From a virus, in the IMG/VR virus record IMGVR_UViG_3300030099_007528, positions 1 to 22,053 of that record: a DNA stretch of 22,053 bases, one strand, 5' to 3'. The first letter of the stretch is position 1. The number at the start of each line of letters is the position of its first letter. A model generated the notes under the pieces. The model did not search any database. It saw only the letters and a program-made list of their open reading frames with translations, and was not told the origin of the DNA. A program made the position numbers and the translations under genes. Shown piece by piece: positions 8,698 through 20,209 of this stretch.

Positions 8698-9366
8698 GTG
8701 GTCAGAATCAATAAAAAATATCAATATAAAAAACATAATAGGTTTCAATCAGAAACAGGCAGAAAATACTTAGTAGATGAGGCTGCAGTTCCAAGCGTAA
8801 CTACAATTTTAAGTGCAACTAAAAATAGTAAAGGTTTAGATGATTGGCGTAGAAGAGTAGGTAATGAGGAAGCTGATCGTATTATGAAAAATGCATCAAG
8901 TGTTGGAACAGAAATGCATAAGGTTCTTGAGTATTATTACAATAATGAAAAATATTTTAACGCCACAGATTTTGGGGAGTTACCTAGAAAAATGGCAGAT
9001 ATTATAAAAGAAAACCTTAAAATTACTGAAGTTTGGGGTAATGAGGTATCATTGGCTTACAATAAGGAATATGCAGGTACAACTGATTTAATAGCTGTTG
9101 TAGGAGAAACACCTACAATTGTAGATTTTAAACAAGCAAATAGACCTAAATTAGAGGAATGGGTAGAGGACTATAAACATCAACTAGGTGCCTATTATTT
9201 AGCTCATAAGACGCATTACGGGCCCGTAGAGCAGGGGGTAATATCAATTGCGACCCGAGGCCTACAATATCAAGAATTTAAGCTCTCAGAGGCTAATTTG
9301 AGTGAATATGCAGATAAATTCTTACATAGATTAGAGCAATATAATCAATCAATTAAAAAAGGTTAA
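8698..9366 (+). CDS. PD-(D/E)XK nuclease (Cas4/RecB-like exonuclease)
   Basis: A 222-residue nuclease of the PD-(D/E)XK superfamily. Motifs in order are H74 in TEMHKVLEYY, E116 in GNEVSLAY, D130 in AGTTDLIAV, D143-F-K145 in TIVDFKQAN, and the Q162/Y166 helix (HQLGAYYLAH). This matches phage RecB/Cas4-like exonucleases used in recombination, replication or genome processing. The four-cysteine iron-sulphur cluster of true Cas4 is absent. I chose GTG 8698, six bases after the preceding stop, because sequence upstream in this frame lies inside the membrane-protein gene and does not resemble the family. There is no strong ribosome binding site, so coupling is likely. It meets the SNF2 gene tail to tail with a 4-base overlap. 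Confidence 0.8.
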   Translation: MVRINKKYQYKKHNRFQSETGRKYLVDEAAVPSVTTILSATKNSKGLDDWRRRVGNEEADRIMKNASSVGTEMHKVLEYYYNNEKYFNATDFGELPRKMADIIKENLKITEVWGNEVSLAYNKEYAGTTDLIAVVGETPTIVDFKQANRPKLEEWVEDYKHQLGAYYLAHKTHYGPVEQGVISIATRGLQYQEFKLSEANLSEYADKFLHRLEQYNQSIKKG

Positions 9367-10787
9367 ATTAACCATTTCTGAGGATTATCACCTAAGGTTT
9401 TAACAGATAATTCTATCTTACTTTTTAAGGCTTGGACTATCTTATCATCAATTGTGTCTTGTGCCATAATATCGACATAAACGACATTTTTATGTTGTCC
9501 TATTCTATGTGCTCTATCTTCTGATTGTCTTCTAACCTCAAGGTTATAACTGTTTGAATAATAAATTACGTATTTAGCCTCTGTTAGAGTTAAACCATAT
9601 CCTCCTGTTGTAGGGTTTGCTACAAAAAATCTACACTTTGGGTCATTCTGAAATCTTGTAACAGCAATATTCCTGTCATCAACTGACGTGGCACCATACA
9701 TAGATACGACAGCATCATTGCCATATTTATCCACAAGCACCTTTATTATTTCATGAATGTTATGTACGTATGTTGCCCAAATGATCACCTTTTGATCTGT
9801 TTCTTCTAGTATCTCTAGCATTGCTTTTAATTTTGGATTTTCAAATTGAATCATGGCACCATCATCATCTTTACAATGTCCATTGGCTAATTGATGCAAC
9901 CTAAGTAATTCTGTTAATTTGTTATGAACTGAAATGGTGCTGTCTTCAAGTAAAGCTAATGCGTTTTGTTTTAATCTTTCATAAACTCTTTTTTGTTCAC
10001 CCTCTATTTTAACGTATCTGATTTGATATATTTTATCAGGAATATCTAAACATTGATCTTTTGTAACTCTGTATGAAAAATCCTTAAGTTTCTGTTCTAA
10101 TTCTGATAGGTGTTGGTAACCCACTGGTACATTTATTGTTTCACCTTGTGCTACATATACTTCATCAAATATACAGAATCTATTGCGAAACGCATAATAA
10201 CTCTTATAACCTAATAATCGTGGATCTAAGAAGGCACATTGTGTATAAAGATCCAATGGAGATTTTGTTACTGGTGATCCTGTTAATATACGGCGCACTT
10301 TCGCTAGGAATCTTAATCGTAAAATGTTCTTTGTTCGTTTTGCTTTTGGGTTTTTTATTGTTGTCGATTCATCAATTATTGTAATATTATGGGGATGTTT
10401 TTTTAAAAATTCTTCACAAGCTTTTAAGCCATTTTTTGTGGATAAAGCTTCAACATTAATTAAAAAAAATTTTAATCCATCAAACTTTTCAAAATGTATA
10501 ACCTCTTTTTTTGAACTTTGTTTCCAAATGTAACAATAATATTTTACTTCATTAGGAAGATGTGTTTTTATCTCATTTTTCCAAATAGAATAAACAGATT
10601 TTGGTGCAATAATTAATGCAGCTTTTAAATTTTTAGTTAAATTTAAATAAGCTATGTTATCTATGGTTGTTTTTGTTTTACCAGTGCCCATTTCCATAAA
10701 AAGTGCGTAATTAGTCTGATTCGCAGATAAATTTAAAGCGTCCCTTTGATGTCCATAGGGTTTTGTTTTATACGGGTATTTCCACAT
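9363..10787 (-). CDS. SNF2-family (SF2) DEAD/DEAH-type helicase
   Basis: A 474-residue ATP-dependent DNA translocase with a complete set of SNF2/SF2 motifs: Q-motif-like YGHQRDAL (11-18), Walker A MGTGKTK (33-39), Ia IIAPKSV (59-65), Walker B IIDEST (137-142, DEST in place of DEAH), motif III LTGSP (168-172), and motif VI QSEDRAHRIGQ (421-431). It is compact, with two RecA lobes and no accessory chromatin domain, as usual for phage SNF2 proteins. It may drive replication start, recombination or protein removal; which is not known. It is the only long gene on the minus strand, facing the nuclease gene tail to tail and diverging from the gene at 10852. A promoter-like sequence lies right upstream. 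Identity is near certain, role uncertain. Confidence 0.93.
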   Translation of the reverse strand: MWKYPYKTKPYGHQRDALNLSANQTNYALFMEMGTGKTKTTIDNIAYLNLTKNLKAALIIAPKSVYSIWKNEIKTHLPNEVKYYCYIWKQSSKKEVIHFEKFDGLKFFLINVEALSTKNGLKACEEFLKKHPHNITIIDESTTIKNPKAKRTKNILRLRFLAKVRRILTGSPVTKSPLDLYTQCAFLDPRLLGYKSYYAFRNRFCIFDEVYVAQGETINVPVGYQHLSELEQKLKDFSYRVTKDQCLDIPDKIYQIRYVKIEGEQKRVYERLKQNALALLEDSTISVHNKLTELLRLHQLANGHCKDDDGAMIQFENPKLKAMLEILEETDQKVIIWATYVHNIHEIIKVLVDKYGNDAVVSMYGATSVDDRNIAVTRFQNDPKCRFFVANPTTGGYGLTLTEAKYVIYYSNSYNLEVRRQSEDRAHRIGQHKNVVYVDIMAQDTIDDKIVQALKSKIELSVKTLGDNPQKWLI

Positions 10788-13751: not shown

Positions 13752-15324
13752 GTTTTTTGGGCCACCGGGCACCGGAAAAACTCACAGATTGTTACAAAGA
13801 GCTAAAAGATTTTTAAGAAGAGGCGTGATGCCTGATGAGATCTGTTACATATCTTTTACTAACAAAGCTGTTCAAGAGTGTTTAGATAGAGTTAGAAAAG
13901 AATTTAAAGGCTATGATGAAGATGACTTTAAATATTTCAGAACTCTTCATAGTTTAGCGAGACAACAATTTGCAGAGATTCCTGTTTTAGATCCAAGAGT
14001 AGATATGCTTCAATTTCATACAGAGTATGGAACTGTAAAAGTAAACTACAAGCCTAACTGGGATGATCAAAATGTTTATAATAATTGGTCATTACAAATT
14101 TATGACAAAGCAAGAAACATGAAAGTAGATCCAATAGCTCTTTACAAAAAAGAACCTAGAAAAAAAGTACGACTTCAACAGTTTAAATCAATTATATATA
14201 ACTATGAAAAGTATAAAACTTACGAAGTAGAACCAGGTAAATTTAAAAATGACAGATTAGATTTCACAGACATGGTACAAAAATTTATTACGTCAGGTCT
14301 TGCAATAAATTTTAAAGTGTTGATGGTTGATGAAGCTCAAGATCTTACACCTTTGCAATGGGACATGGTTGTAAAATTATCTATGCATGCAAATAAAGTT
14401 TATTTGGCTGGTGATGATGATCAGGCCATTTATGAATGGAACGGAGCTGATGTATCTTACTTTCAAACATTTCCAGGCAAATCTAAAATATTAAATAAAT
14501 CTAGAAGATTAAATAAGAAAGTACATTTTTTTGCTAAATGTCTTTTGCATGGTATGGAGGGTCATAGAGTAAAAAAAGAATTTGAATCAAATGATAAAGA
14601 TGGAGAGATATATAGATGGAGTTCTTTAAGAAAAGTCCCATTTGAACAAAAAGGCAATTGGATGATACTTGCTAGAATTAATGATGTTAAAAAAGAATTA
14701 CAAGATGAAGCTAAAAACATGGGTTTATATTTTCAAGACATGAAAGGAAACAAATCTTATGACATAAATCAATGGAAAGCTATTCAAGATTGGGATAAAA
14801 TTTGTAGCGGAGGATCTATCAATAGAGAAGACGCATGCATTATGTATAATTATCTTTTGAACATAGATCACGGCTACCGTTCAGCGGACAGCAAAAAGTG
14901 GAGTTTTGCACATCCAAACCAGCTATTTGATTTCAACGAATTACACTTACGTGGTGGAATGGTAGAAGAAAAAGCAACTTGGCAAGAAGCTTTTAAAAGA
15001 AAATTCAAAGATTCCGAGAAGAAATATTTTATTAAATTAATCGAATCAGAAGTAAATTTAGATGAAAGAGCACCTATTTTAATTGATACGATTCATCAAG
15101 TAAAAGGAGGTGAGGCTGATAATGTTGTGCTTTCATCAAAATGTAATTTTCCATCACACTATGAGAGAAAATCATTATTAGATAAGGTGCAAGAGTTAAG
15201 GGTTTGGTACACAGGAGTAACAAGAGCAATCAACACATTACACTTACTTGGGACTTTCCATAAGTATAATTTTCCGTTGAGTAAATATTATAAATTGTAT
15301 AGAAGTAATTATGTCGGTTTTTAA
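13708..15324 (+). CDS. UvrD/Rep-like superfamily 1 DNA helicase
   Basis: A 538-residue SF1A helicase with all core motifs: Walker A GPPGTGKT (18-25), Ia ISFTNKAVQE (48-57), FRTLHSLA (77-84), Walker B VDEAQD (207-212), motif III LAGDDDQAIYEWNG (233-246), IV KSRRLNKK, V TIHQVKGGEADNVVLS (461-476) and VI YTGVTRAI (501-508). It lacks the long 1B/2B insertions of UvrD, so it is a compact phage form and a good candidate for the fork helicase. I chose ATG 13708 because Walker A then falls at the usual distance from the N-terminus; an in-frame GTG at 13624 would add 28 residues read entirely inside the primase gene. No strong ribosome binding site is seen, so coupling to the primase is likely. Confidence 0.92.
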   Translation: MSNLIKRKLHGKTIKFFGPPGTGKTHRLLQRAKRFLRRGVMPDEICYISFTNKAVQECLDRVRKEFKGYDEDDFKYFRTLHSLARQQFAEIPVLDPRVDMLQFHTEYGTVKVNYKPNWDDQNVYNNWSLQIYDKARNMKVDPIALYKKEPRKKVRLQQFKSIIYNYEKYKTYEVEPGKFKNDRLDFTDMVQKFITSGLAINFKVLMVDEAQDLTPLQWDMVVKLSMHANKVYLAGDDDQAIYEWNGADVSYFQTFPGKSKILNKSRRLNKKVHFFAKCLLHGMEGHRVKKEFESNDKDGEIYRWSSLRKVPFEQKGNWMILARINDVKKELQDEAKNMGLYFQDMKGNKSYDINQWKAIQDWDKICSGGSINREDACIMYNYLLNIDHGYRSADSKKWSFAHPNQLFDFNELHLRGGMVEEKATWQEAFKRKFKDSEKKYFIKLIESEVNLDERAPILIDTIHQVKGGEADNVVLSSKCNFPSHYERKSLLDKVQELRVWYTGVTRAINTLHLLGTFHKYNFPLSKYYKLYRSNYVGF

Positions 15325-15523
15325 AAAACAAGAAGGCGGGTCACATTATAAATCTTTTGCAATTCAGCCAGCACAATACTCAATAAAAAATAATCTCCCG
15401 TGGCCTGAGGGTGAGTCTATAAAATATATTACGAGACATAAATTAAAAGGTGGAAAAAAAGATTTGTTAAAAGCTAAACACTGTATTGATATGATAATAG
15501 AAAGAGACTATGGCTCTGATTGA
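15311..15523 (+). CDS. DUF3310 small protein (T7 gp1.7 kinase-related family)
   Basis: The 70-residue product is close to a bare DUF3310 domain. It has GGSHYKSFAIQPAQYSIKNN near the start, ESIKYITRHKLKGGKKDL in the middle, and KAKHCIDMIIERD at the end. The family is widespread in phages and includes the nucleotide kinase gene 1.7 of T7. Whether this short form is catalytic cannot be said, because it is essentially the shared domain alone. It starts inside the helicase gene (14-base overlap) and ends inside the methyltransferase gene (14-base overlap), consistent with one translated unit serving DNA precursor supply. Confidence 0.85.
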   Translation: MSVFKKQEGGSHYKSFAIQPAQYSIKNNLPWPEGESIKYITRHKLKGGKKDLLKAKHCIDMIIERDYGSD

Positions 15524-16187
15524 CGCTAAATTTTTTGAACGCGCAAAAGAACGTTTTAATATTAATTTTACAAATGTTTTAGACATTGGTGCAGCTAATG
15601 GCGACTGGTCTAGTCATGTCAAAGATTTTTATCCAGATGCTAAATTTACATTAATAGAGCCAAATAAATTATTTAATGAAAGGTTAAGAAGTTTAGGTAA
15701 AGTTCATAATGTTTATCTTAGTGATAAAGTAGAGGAGAGAAATTTTTATGTTTGTAAAGACCCTTTTCAACAAACTGGAAACAGTTTTTATAAAGAAAAA
15801 TCTAATGTTCCCTTTGATAAACAGTTAGTAAATACTCATACTTTAGATTCTATAACACAAGATGAAACATTTGATTTAATTAAATTAGATGTACAAGGTG
15901 CAGAGGTAGAAGTTATAAGAGGTGGCATGATTACAATCCCTAAAGCTAAATGGTTGCAAATTGAAGTGCCTGTATTTGAATTTAACATTGGATCTCCTAG
16001 TATGTATAATTTATTAGGAAACTTAAAGGCAATAGGTTTTTATCCATTTGATGTTGCACAACTTTTATTTAATGTAAGATGTTTGTATATTGATATTATG
16101 TTTGTCAATCGCAACTTACCAACACACAAATCTGAAGATTCAATAATAAATTTTACAAAATATGGTGTTAAAAAAGATAATAGTTAA
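15510..16187 (+). CDS. FkbM-family SAM-dependent methyltransferase
   Basis: A 225-residue Rossmann-fold methyltransferase. Motif I is VLDIGAANGDWS (23-34), followed by the acidic loop LIEPN (48-52). The FkbM hallmark FDLIKLDVQGAEVEVIRGG lies at 121-139, preceded by THTLDSI. FkbM enzymes methylate hydroxyl groups on sugars, lipids or antibiotics; marine phages often carry one, with unknown substrate. Its place here is odd, between a DUF3310 gene and the polymerase rather than beside the glycosyltransferase at 95-910. The start overlaps the DUF3310 gene. The family call is strong, the substrate unknown. A DNA base-modifying role would be speculation, since FkbM is not a known DNA methyltransferase family. 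Confidence 0.88.
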   Translation: MALIDAKFFERAKERFNINFTNVLDIGAANGDWSSHVKDFYPDAKFTLIEPNKLFNERLRSLGKVHNVYLSDKVEERNFYVCKDPFQQTGNSFYKEKSNVPFDKQLVNTHTLDSITQDETFDLIKLDVQGAEVEVIRGGMITIPKAKWLQIEVPVFEFNIGSPSMYNLLGNLKAIGFYPFDVAQLLFNVRCLYIDIMFVNRNLPTHKSEDSIINFTKYGVKKDNS

Positions 16188-16194
16188 AATAAGA

Positions 16195-16287
16195 ATGTGG
16201 TATGCGGATATCCGTGGCCATCACGGTAAACGTTGGAATTATGAACCTGGAGATTGGTACATGGGTAGAAAGAAAAAAAGAAAATGA
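16195..16287 (+). CDS. Tiny basic, tryptophan-rich protein (30 aa)
   Basis: A 30-residue ORF beginning 7 bases after the methyltransferase stop, with composition far from random AT-rich translation. It has three Trp, three Tyr and two His in the first 22 residues (MWYADIRGHHGKRWNYEPGD), then a GRKKKRK basic tail. It could be a small nucleic-acid-binding or host-interacting peptide; no family is known to me. Its TGA overlaps the ATG of the next tiny ORF in an ATGA junction (16284-16287). Together with the next two ORFs it fills the 268-base gap before the polymerase. Confidence 0.55.
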   Translation: MWYADIRGHHGKRWNYEPGDWYMGRKKKRK

Positions 16288-16376
16288 CAGCAAGTTACGG
16301 ATTTGGAATGTTACTAGTTGGTATTATTGTAATAGCAATAATTTGTGCAATTGGTCTTCATATAATTAATAAATGA
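16284..16376 (+). CDS. Tiny single-pass membrane protein (30 aa)
   Basis: Thirty residues, most of them one hydrophobic helix, LLVGIIVIAIICAIGLHII, after a short polar start (MTASYGFG) and before a polar NK end. It joins the previous ORF by ATGA at its start and the next by ATGA at its end, with no ribosome binding site of its own, so translation is probably by re-initiation. The function is unknown; small membrane proteins in phages include holin partners, exclusion proteins and host-membrane modifiers. Confidence 0.5.
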   Translation: MTASYGFGMLLVGIIVIAIICAIGLHIINK

Positions 16377-16459
16377 TTGTTTTATCAATACTTATAGTTT
16401 TATCAATTTATGCATTTGTATGTATGTTACTTTACCTTTGGCATAAGGAGAAGCCATGA
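16373..16459 (+). CDS. Tiny single-pass membrane protein (28 aa), coupled to the polymerase start
   Basis: Twenty-eight residues with one hydrophobic segment (LSILIVLSIYAFVCMLLYLW) and a short HKEKP tail. It begins at an ATGA junction with the previous ORF and ends at another ATGA (16456-16459) that is the DNA polymerase start codon. Its last codons contain the polymerase's AAGGAG ribosome binding site (16445-16450). It could be a true protein, or a translated leader that sets polymerase expression. Confidence 0.5.
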   Translation: MIVLSILIVLSIYAFVCMLLYLWHKEKP

Positions 16460-18333
16460 GTCACCAGTTAAATTTTATATATTCAGATTCAGATTGGGTA
16501 TGTCCTTCAGAATACCCTGACTTAAGAGCAGCAGATGAAATTGCAATTGACTTAGAAACAAAAGATCCTGATTTAAAAAAATATGGTGCTGGGTGGGCAT
16601 ACGGTAAAGGTCATATCGTAGGATTTGCGGTGGCTGCACTTGGTAAACAATATTATTTTCCTATAGCTCATCACGCAGGTGGTAATATGGATTTAGATAT
16701 TACAGTAGCTTGGATGCAAGATCTACTAAAACAACCAAGCACAAAAATATTTCATAACGCTGCATATGATTTAGGATGGTTGAAATTTAATAATTTTCAA
16801 GTCAATGGACCAATTGTAGACACAATGATAGCTGCTGCATTAATTGATGAAAACAGGTGGAGCTTCTCATTAAATGCTTGTGCTAAAGATTATTTAGGTG
16901 AGATTAAAAATGAAACTTTTTTAAATGAAAAAGCAAAAGAATGGGGATTAGATCCTAAACAAGATCTTTGGAGAATGCCCGCAGGTTATGTTGGTTTTTA
17001 TGCAGAGCAGGATGCTGGTTTAACTTTAAGACTTTGGCAAAGATTCAAAGCAGAAATACAAAAACAATCACTTAATGATGTTTGGGAAATGGAAATGGAA
17101 CTATTACCAATATTACATAAGATGAGAGCCACAGGTATTCGTGTCGATGAAGAGAAAGCATTGTTATTAAAAAAAGAATTTAAACAAAAAGAAGCATCCT
17201 TGTTGAGTAAAATTAAAAAAGAAACCACTTTAAATGTAGATATTTGGGCGGCTCGTAGTGTTGCTAAAGTATTTGATCGTATAGGTGTTGACTATCCTAG
17301 AACACCAAAGTCAGATGAACCATCATTTACAACAAATTGGTTAGCTAATTGTGAACACCCAATCGCTAAGTTAATTAAAGAAGTTAGAGAAATTAATAAA
17401 TTTCATTCGACGTTTATAGATTCTATACAAAGATATGTACATAAGGGTAGAATACACGCAGAGATAAATCAATTAAGATCGGATCAAGGAGGCACTGTAT
17501 CTGGTAGACTGTCCTATGCCAATCCAAATTTACAGCAGATACCAGCACGTAACAAAGAATTTGGTAACAAAATTAGATCTTTGTTTTTACCTGAAGAGGG
17601 TAAACAGTGGGGTTCATTTGATTACTCGCAACAGGAGCCAAGATTAGTAGCACACTATTCAACGGCCATCGGACAACAACTTGACGGATCAGAAGAATTT
17701 ATTAAAGCTTATCAAGATGAGTCTGCGGACTTTCATCAGATTGTAGCTGACATGGCTCAAATTTCTAGAACCCAGGCCAAAACAATTAATTTAGGATTGT
17801 TTTATGGAATGGGTAAAAATAAATTATCAAAAGAACTAGGAATATCTAAAGATAAAGCGGAAATACTTCTAAACCAATACAATAGCAGAGTGCCTTTTGT
17901 AAAAAAATTAGCTGAAGCTGTAACGCAATCGGCTAGTAAGTTTGGTTTTATAAGAACTGTAAAAGGTAGAAAATGTAGATTTGATAAGTGGGAGCCTATG
18001 ACTTTTGGTATGAACCAGGCCATGAACTATAATGAGGCCAAAGCTAATTATGGTAACAACATAAGGCGTGCATTTACTTACAAGGCACTAAATAGGTTAA
18101 TTCAGGGTTCAGCAGCTGACCAAGCTAAACAAGCTATGATTGATTGCTACAACGCAGGGTTTATGCCAATGTTACAAATACATGATGAATTGTGCTTTAG
18201 TATCTATGGGGAAGATGATATAATTAAAATAAAGAAAGAAATGGAAACATGTATCGAAGACTTACGTGTTCCATTTAAAGTAGATATCGCGAAAGGTAAA
18301 AGTTGGGGAGAGACACATGATGATGACAGATAA
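16456..18333 (+). CDS. polA-like: Family A DNA polymerase with 3'-5' exonuclease domain (Leu762 type)
   Basis: A 625-residue replicative polymerase without a 5'-3' nuclease domain. The proofreading domain has Exo I D32-x-E34 (IDLET), Exo II N101-x3-D105 (NAAYD) and Exo III Y182-x3-D186 (YAEQD). The polymerase domain has motif A DYSQQEPR (389-396), the O helix R438-x3-K442-x3-L446-x3-Y450 (RTQAKTINLGLFYG), a QGSAADQAK segment and motif C H576-D577-E578. All catalytic acids are kept. Leu446 sits where E. coli Pol I has Phe762 and T7 has Tyr526. Motif A is QxP where E. coli has IxL (DYSQIELR). It follows a good AAGGAG site and is coupled to the tiny ORF before it. This enzyme should replicate the phage genome. 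Confidence 0.97.
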   Translation: MSHQLNFIYSDSDWVCPSEYPDLRAADEIAIDLETKDPDLKKYGAGWAYGKGHIVGFAVAALGKQYYFPIAHHAGGNMDLDITVAWMQDLLKQPSTKIFHNAAYDLGWLKFNNFQVNGPIVDTMIAAALIDENRWSFSLNACAKDYLGEIKNETFLNEKAKEWGLDPKQDLWRMPAGYVGFYAEQDAGLTLRLWQRFKAEIQKQSLNDVWEMEMELLPILHKMRATGIRVDEEKALLLKKEFKQKEASLLSKIKKETTLNVDIWAARSVAKVFDRIGVDYPRTPKSDEPSFTTNWLANCEHPIAKLIKEVREINKFHSTFIDSIQRYVHKGRIHAEINQLRSDQGGTVSGRLSYANPNLQQIPARNKEFGNKIRSLFLPEEGKQWGSFDYSQQEPRLVAHYSTAIGQQLDGSEEFIKAYQDESADFHQIVADMAQISRTQAKTINLGLFYGMGKNKLSKELGISKDKAEILLNQYNSRVPFVKKLAEAVTQSASKFGFIRTVKGRKCRFDKWEPMTFGMNQAMNYNEAKANYGNNIRRAFTYKALNRLIQGSAADQAKQAMIDCYNAGFMPMLQIHDELCFSIYGEDDIIKIKKEMETCIEDLRVPFKVDIAKGKSWGETHDDDR

Positions 18334-18562
18334 AGATGCAGAAGACTTTCATAAACAAATAGAAAATTTAAAAAAGGGTAAAGAAGTAAAAAGATATATT
18401 CCTATCGACGAAAGAGGAACCTCTTGTTTAAGATGTAAGGATAAAAGAACTATTTATGTTTACAAAGATAATACTGAAAGTAGTGGTATTGTTAAAGTTG
18501 ACTGCCCAATGTGTAGCCCACAACGGCCACCGGAAGAACTAAGAGAAGACGGAATGATTTAG
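18317..18562 (+). CDS. Small zinc-ribbon-like protein
   Basis: An 81-residue protein with two CxxC pairs, C37/C40 (CLRC) and C63/C66 (CPMC), spaced as in a zinc ribbon. The N-terminus is charged and helical (DKDAEDFHKQIENLKKGKEV) and the C-terminus is acidic and proline-rich. Three consecutive ATG codons (18317, 18320, 18323) could each start it; the first is given. It overlaps the polymerase end by 17 bases and shares one base with the next start (TAGTG). It may bind nucleic acid or a partner in replication or transcription; no family is recognised. Confidence 0.7.
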   Translation: MMMTDKDAEDFHKQIENLKKGKEVKRYIPIDERGTSCLRCKDKRTIYVYKDNTESSGIVKVDCPMCSPQRPPEELREDGMI

Positions 18563-19017
18563 TGAAAGTCAAACCCATTACTCTGCGTTTTGCAAATGCA
18601 TACGTAGAGGAACATCATAGACATAGTAAACGTGCACAGGGATGTAAATTTTGTATTGCTTGCGTGAATACAGAAGATCAAATTTTAGGAATAGCAATAG
18701 TTGGTAGACCCGTAGCAAGAAAACTAGATGATGGCTACACCGGTGAAATAATTAGAACATGTACAAATGGATCAAAAAATGTAAATAGCTTTCTGTATGG
18801 GGCTTGTGTAAGAATTTGGAAAGAAATGGGTGGAAGAAAGATAATAACTTATACACTTGAAACAGAATCGGGAGTAAGTCTTAAAGCTGCAGGTTTTATT
18901 AACGACAACACTACAAAGTCATTTCCTAAAGGTAAGGGTTGGACGACAAGAAAAAATAGAGAGTGGCAACCTAAAGTACATTCATTACAAAAATTAAGAT
19001 GGATTAAAAATATATGA
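18562..19017 (+). CDS. Mom/XF1762-like GNAT protein, possible DNA-modification enzyme
   Basis: The 151-residue sequence matches the XF1762 family pattern: LRFANAYVEEHHRHSKRAQG (8-27), then LGIAIVGRPVARKLDDG (42-58), EIIRTCTNGSKNVNSFLYGA (62-81), and ITYTLETESGVSLKAAGF (95-112). This family belongs to the GNAT-like group around phage Mu Mom, which adds a carbamoylmethyl group to adenine and so blocks restriction enzymes. A modification role here is therefore plausible, but XF1762 proteins are largely uncharacterised. It starts at GTG, coupled by TAGTG to the zinc-ribbon gene, and ends the rightward replication block, facing the minus-strand cluster. No strong terminator is seen between them. 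Confidence 0.72.
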   Translation: MKVKPITLRFANAYVEEHHRHSKRAQGCKFCIACVNTEDQILGIAIVGRPVARKLDDGYTGEIIRTCTNGSKNVNSFLYGACVRIWKEMGGRKIITYTLETESGVSLKAAGFINDNTTKSFPKGKGWTTRKNREWQPKVHSLQKLRWIKNI

Positions 19018-19948: not shown

Positions 19949-20209
19949 ATGACGACTAGTATAGCTAAAGACACTTGGACGCTTAAAGGACCAAATGACC
20001 TTGTTAATCAAAAAACTAAAACTATTGTAGTTGAATTAATTAATGATGAAGAAATACATTATACAATTAATTATGAAAGAGTTAACAAGTTTACATATGA
20101 TCCATCTTATAAGGCCGGTATTGATTTCCATAAGATTATGGAATTCATAATTAAAACATTAGACAAATCAACAACACCAATTTATTTAGGTGGGAGGTCT
20201 AAACAATGA
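19949..20209 (+). CDS. Unknown small protein (86 aa)
   Basis: The first half is beta-rich (DTWTLKGPNDLVNQKTKTIV, then ELINDEEIHYTINYERV). The second is helical (FHKIMEFIIKTLDK) before a short polar tail. AAGGAG (19937-19942) lies six bases before the ATG. It opens the right-hand group of small plus-strand genes and overlaps the next by ATGA. No family is recognised; product size and place suggest an early accessory protein. Confidence 0.6.
   Translation: MTTSIAKDTWTLKGPNDLVNQKTKTIVVELINDEEIHYTINYERVNKFTYDPSYKAGIDFHKIMEFIIKTLDKSTTPIYLGGRSKQ

Follow-up and report, generated by a model that had tools for sequence, protein, structure and literature searches.

How a phage DNA polymerase gene came to be preceded by three very small overlapping reading frames, and whether these encode proteins or serve the synthesis of the polymerase, is the question raised by one locus in a DNA sequence of 22,053 nt from an uncultivated virus (positions 1–22,053 of IMG/VR record IMGVR_UViG_3300030099_007528), which as a whole stretch of DNA is referred to below as the window. 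An earlier sequence-only reading had offered both answers, namely that the ORFs may be real small proteins or a coupled leader metering polymerase synthesis. The features concerned are the following:

15311–15523, plus strand: DUF3310-like protein gene; in relatives, usually the gene immediately before polA
15510–16187, plus strand: FkbM-type methyltransferase (Methyltransf_21; Pfam PF05050, E 4e-16), cargo of the slot before polA
16162–16287, plus strand: ORF1, family F1, 41-residue basic Trp/Tyr-rich microprotein (conservation, dN/dS)
16284–16287, plus strand: ATGA junction ORF1/ORF2 (sequence)
16284–16376, plus strand: ORF2, family F2, 30-residue single-TM microprotein with the motif MTxxY[GA][LF]GM (45 related loci; dN/dS)
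16284–16372, plus strand: 89-nt ATGA-to-ATGA unit that L009-type relatives lack (skip alignment)
16373–16376, plus strand: ATGA junction ORF2/ORF3 (sequence)
16373–16459, plus strand: ORF3, family F3, 28-residue single-TM microprotein with C-terminal W-x-[KN]-E (homologues; dN/dS)
16445–16450, plus strand: AAGGAG, SD-like site for polA within the 3' end of ORF3 (sequence)
16456–16459, plus strand: ATGA junction ORF3/polA, a 4-nt overlap kept in 67 of 82 loci with differing upstream genes
16456–18333, plus strand: DNA polymerase A, HTVC023P/HTVC027P type (phrog_17, E 2.9e-116)

Gene order and gene models

The arrangement first described from the letters was found again: an interval of 268 bases separating the methyltransferase stop (16187) from the ATG of polA, ORFs of 30, 30 and 28 codons (with ORF1 read from 16195), and three ATGA overlaps, the last of which is the polA start. 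ORF1 is rich in Trp and Tyr and has a basic tail, as had been stated, and its stop and ATGA junction stand; its start was corrected from 16195 to 16162, giving 41 codons (MVLKKIIVKIRMWYADIRGHHGKRWNYEPGDWYMGRKKKRK) and an overlap of 26 nt with the methyltransferase gene. The N-terminal part of F1, KK[LI]IV[RK][LI]R, is kept in phages with wholly different upstream genes and unrelated upstream DNA, and position 16195 is therefore an internal codon, Met12. A competing frame of 55 codons (16202–16369) was unsupported.

The claim that three consecutive ATGA junctions are unlikely by chance was examined with first-order Markov sequences of the window's nearest-neighbour composition, in which ORFs of at least 25 codons were chained into a fixed ATGA start serving as the chain end; none of 40,000 random sequences contained the chain of three, in agreement with the claim, and 18 of 40,000 contained a chain of two. 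Short overlaps as such are ordinary in this genome, as the majority of the adjacent gene pairs listed overlap or almost abut; a further 4-nt overlap lies at 20206.

The helicase neighbouring the chain belongs to phrog_1967 and, among named phages, the polymerase is nearest to those of HTVC023P and HTVC027P. Downstream of polA (18562–19017) a Mom-like DNA modification protein is encoded (phrog_1384, E 3.6e-31; weak Pfam match), and a SNF2-type helicase is found at 9363–10787 on the minus strand, opposite to its neighbours.

Coding evidence

The sequence-only reading had proposed comparing the interval among related phages, and a polymerase scan of viral contigs provided 80 relatives with a polymerase of 78–100% protein identity. 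Start/stop overlaps proved to be conserved, together with the amino acid sequences: for all three ORFs the homologues retain start, frame, stop and junctions, and low dN/dS is confined to the proposed frame, so that the first of the two answers, real small proteins, is supported for each of them. By the Nei-Gojobori method the F1 core, RMWYADIRGHHGKRW[ND]YEPGDWYMGR, has a median dN/dS of 0.07 over 72 distinct sequences and of 0.04 in the polA-linked set; the medians are about 0.30 for F2 and about 0.23 for F3, where F2 homologues outside polA loci and two F3 loci were gathered by similarity or motif, which may bias the values downwards, and the other F3 loci were found through polA. Shifted frames of the identical aligned DNA give about 0.6–1.8. 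Synonymous sites in F1 are near saturation, and it is therefore the protein that is conserved and not the DNA or RNA. In polA relatives ORF1 is either intact or entirely absent.

The F1 family and its genomic contexts

A profile search of viral contigs with F1 yielded at least 583 confirmed relatives among the 600 matching stretches listed. F1 had no match above cut-off among Pfam and NCBIfam profiles and nothing convincing in PHROGs (one of 66 members at E 0.085), sequence searches of PHROGs, Pfam, NCBIfam and PDB with all three peptides returned no credible family, and a literature search for the letters of the F1 motif found no paper; the F1 family appears to be undescribed. It is present in four named phages, HTVC021P, HTVC048P, HTVC103P and HTVC104P. 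The HTVC021P homologue (gp56, AXH68365.1) is annotated as a "hypothetical protein" and shares 72% identity over 36 residues, but differs in its position near maturase B. In HTVC103P and HTVC104P the gene lies in the early region and is unannotated because gp28 (L005:4055–4381) and gp30 (L004:4055–4381), respectively, are annotated from starts inside it, in a different frame.

In marine T4-like phages F1 is located between the clamp-loader genes 44 and 62, as identified by PHROGs. Among 79 matches not ranked by similarity, 26 lay at gp44/gp62; the neighbourhood was that of an exonuclease for 13, of polA for 6 and of primase/DnaB for 1, two other groups comprised 5 and 4, and 24 lay elsewhere, many of the last adjoining secreted or late proteins; about 40% are thus at gp44/62 or polA, with many elsewhere. 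As it occurs in early, exonuclease and late regions as well, F1 behaves as an accessory microprotein that crosses lineages. The gap between gp44 and gp62 in marine T4-like phages (L129:1470–3111, L224:1501–3408, L225:1501–3839) holds F1 in uncultivated phages; in Mosig and HTVC008M, two T4-like pelagiphages in culture, it is occupied by an oxygenase gene, and so the gap accepts varied cargo too. Four matches came from metagenome-assembled bacterial genomes, and these are treated as phage-borne because in two of them (L219, L221) F1 is surrounded by a complete gp45-44-62-regA cluster of phage genes. An F1 variant starting MPRPVRKWIVRL (L240, L241, L252, L269, L272, L286) adjoins secreted Ser/Thr-rich proteins and a 121-residue TM/coiled-coil-like protein; the three proteins tested beside it had no match in Pfam.

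F1 is strongly basic (pI 10.6). Its AlphaFold model, built with 64 sequences, contains one helix (residues 2–19), the remainder being of low confidence (mean pLDDT 66); a Foldseek search with this model gave no match among viral proteins, and the amphipathicity of the helix is not significant, as 22% of shuffles reach the same value.

Because F1 is nearly invariant in marine phages unrelated to one another, it may act on a partner, either a host factor or a nucleic acid, that their infections have in common. The main rival for its role is that F1, perhaps with F2, takes a direct part in phage DNA replication; this would account for the placement beside clamp-loader genes and polA in the unranked matches and is in keeping with the basic charge and with the 27 of 50 F2 records (some of them duplicates) that adjoin polA. 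However, F1 is also found near maturase B, in the early region and beside secreted or late proteins, it is absent from most polA relatives (conserved in 9 of the 81 rows of the polA tree), cultured T4-like pelagiphages hold other cargo in the gp44-gp62 gap, and its location may reflect insertion slots only. The AlphaFold model does not decide between a host-factor or nucleic-acid partner and a replisome role; we regard a replisome accessory as rather unlikely. A tentative suggestion, also less likely than not, is that F1 is a near-invariant effector of 41 residues with a conserved host or replisome target, carried as an ATGA-to-ATGA microcassette that would dock seamlessly into gaps of replication operons where translation is coupled (polA; clamp-loader 44|62).

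The membrane peptides F2 and F3

ORF2 and ORF3 had been described as single membrane helices, and the 19-residue Kyte-Doolittle means bear this out (best values 3.05 and 2.93, respectively); all collected F2 and F3 homologues have a best 19-mer mean above 2.0, and both are predicted to be single-pass membrane microproteins. F3 has 28 codons in all 14 distinct homologues, each joined to polA by ATGA or GTGA, and F2 homologues in other lineages lie directly upstream of polA. Neither peptide matched annotated phages by tblastn. In three relatives (L065, L071, L080) small lipoprotein-like ORFs of about 39 residues (L[TS]xC) lie upstream of polA and share the slot with F2.

Such peptides might alter the host envelope, e.g. 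by excluding competing phages, and the occupation of one slot by single-TM and lipoprotein-like units is consistent with this reading. The PHROGs, Pfam and NCBIfam searches gave no homology to any exclusion protein, though, and early co-expression is only an assumption; an envelope function is regarded as rather unlikely.

Exchange of units upstream of polA

Among 82 loci the gene directly before polA has been exchanged repeatedly, and at least eight non-homologous genes precede it: DUF3310-like, oxygenase-like and SAM-dependent methyltransferase-like genes (the latter two named from sequence motifs, not profiles), F3, F2, a lipoprotein-like ORF, a 33-residue Trp-rich ORF and others. The minimum number of state changes on the polA tree is 4 for F1, 5 for F2 and 2 for F3. 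When 16284–16372 is left out, the window aligns with L009 without gaps over 220 bases, 170 of them identical, across F1, F3 and polA; ORF2 is therefore present or absent as a single ATGA-to-ATGA block. The methyltransferase is joined directly to F3 in L011, and F1 lies between the two in L010. The junctions have short A-rich ends in common, e.g. AAATGA, and from the end states only we infer exchange by recombination at this short microhomology.

A stop/start overlap at polA is found in 79 of the 82 loci (67 by 4 nt, 12 by 1 or 17 nt), and only 18 have an SD-like tetramer ahead of the polA start. Coupling of polA is plausible because the overlap is so widespread and mostly lacks an SD-like site; the polA start may be served by ribosomes finishing the preceding gene, a proposal drawn from the gene layout, and compaction alone can also give rise to 4-nt overlaps.

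Only this half of the coupled-leader idea is supported. A dedicated leader, in which the three ORFs mainly meter polymerase synthesis and their peptide sequences are secondary, would fit the three successive ATGA junctions, the conserved polA overlap and the SD-like site borne by the end of ORF3, but the peptides are conserved at the amino acid level, are dispensable to polymerases 79–96% identical and have family members away from polA in unrelated phages; immediately before polymerases 90% identical, DUF3310 takes their place. A regulatory leader is expected to be conserved at the gene that it regulates, and here one preceding gene has replaced another among loci whose polA is similar. The sequence-only reading had named unrelated sequence upstream of similar polymerases as grounds for refutation; such sequence was found, and it counts against the leader and not against real peptides. 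RNA folding of the interval is no better than that of shuffles (z-scores 0.56 and 0.30), and neither a terminator-like site nor an attenuator was found across it. A dedicated leader is consequently judged improbable.

That the ORFs merely arose by chance in compact, AT-rich DNA has a negligible probability, as short ORFs are indeed common in the window but the simulated chains, the purifying selection and the wide range of homologues all speak against it.

Comparison with known systems

Four-nucleotide overlaps are an experimentally established route of coupling by termination-reinitiation in other organisms (Huber et al. 2019, PMC6728339). The pairs described there resemble the window in their ATGA overlap geometry and in downstream starts that often lack a strong SD-like site; they differ in that here the overlap at polA persists through changes of the upstream partner, and in that coupling here is only predicted from gene architecture. 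The classic translationally coupled pair of T4, clamp-loader genes 44 and 62 (reviewed in PMC2988022), likewise consists of adjacent replication genes, and it is exactly in this gap that F1 sits in marine T4-like phages; the T4 pair acts together, whereas F1 is a unit inserted between the two.

Pelagiphages of the HTVC023P/HTVC027P type (PMC9599517) have in common with the window a related polA, helicase and DUF3310-like gene order and small unannotated genes before polA, but other small ORFs occupy the slot in HTVC023P and HTVC027P; terms for genes like F1–F3 were not found in the text of PMC9599517. Overlapping genes with coupled translation, and intergenic slots that take accessory cargo, are already known kinds of arrangement, of which a polA overlap persisting through cargo exchange is, as read from the genomes compared, a clear example.

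Conclusions

In conclusion, the three ORFs are real coding sequence with conserved overlaps and are exchanged as units. We consider it probable that the interval is a slot in which cargo is exchanged from ATGA to ATGA while polA stays tied to the preceding stop, and that the microgenes are accessory rather than a polymerase switch. The slot would separate polA from the helicase/DUF3310 genes in a relative of the Pelagibacter phages, and it holds three genuine microgenes. The start of each unit overlaps the previous stop and its own stop the next start (for ORF1, the 26 nt shared with the methyltransferase gene), so that gain, loss or exchange of a unit could leave the junctions between genes intact. 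Ribosomes that have just completed the preceding gene would translate polA by termination-reinitiation, whichever gene that may be, with F1, F2 and F3 probably serving as accessory cargo and not as parts of a switch.

Phage genes of 30–40 codons such as these are missed by gene callers and family libraries. The very strong conservation of F1 across phage lineages suggests a target shared among abundant marine infections, and the slot before polA illustrates how a compact operon may swap cargo while an essential downstream start remains tied to an upstream stop, which would constitute a design rule for phage genome evolution.
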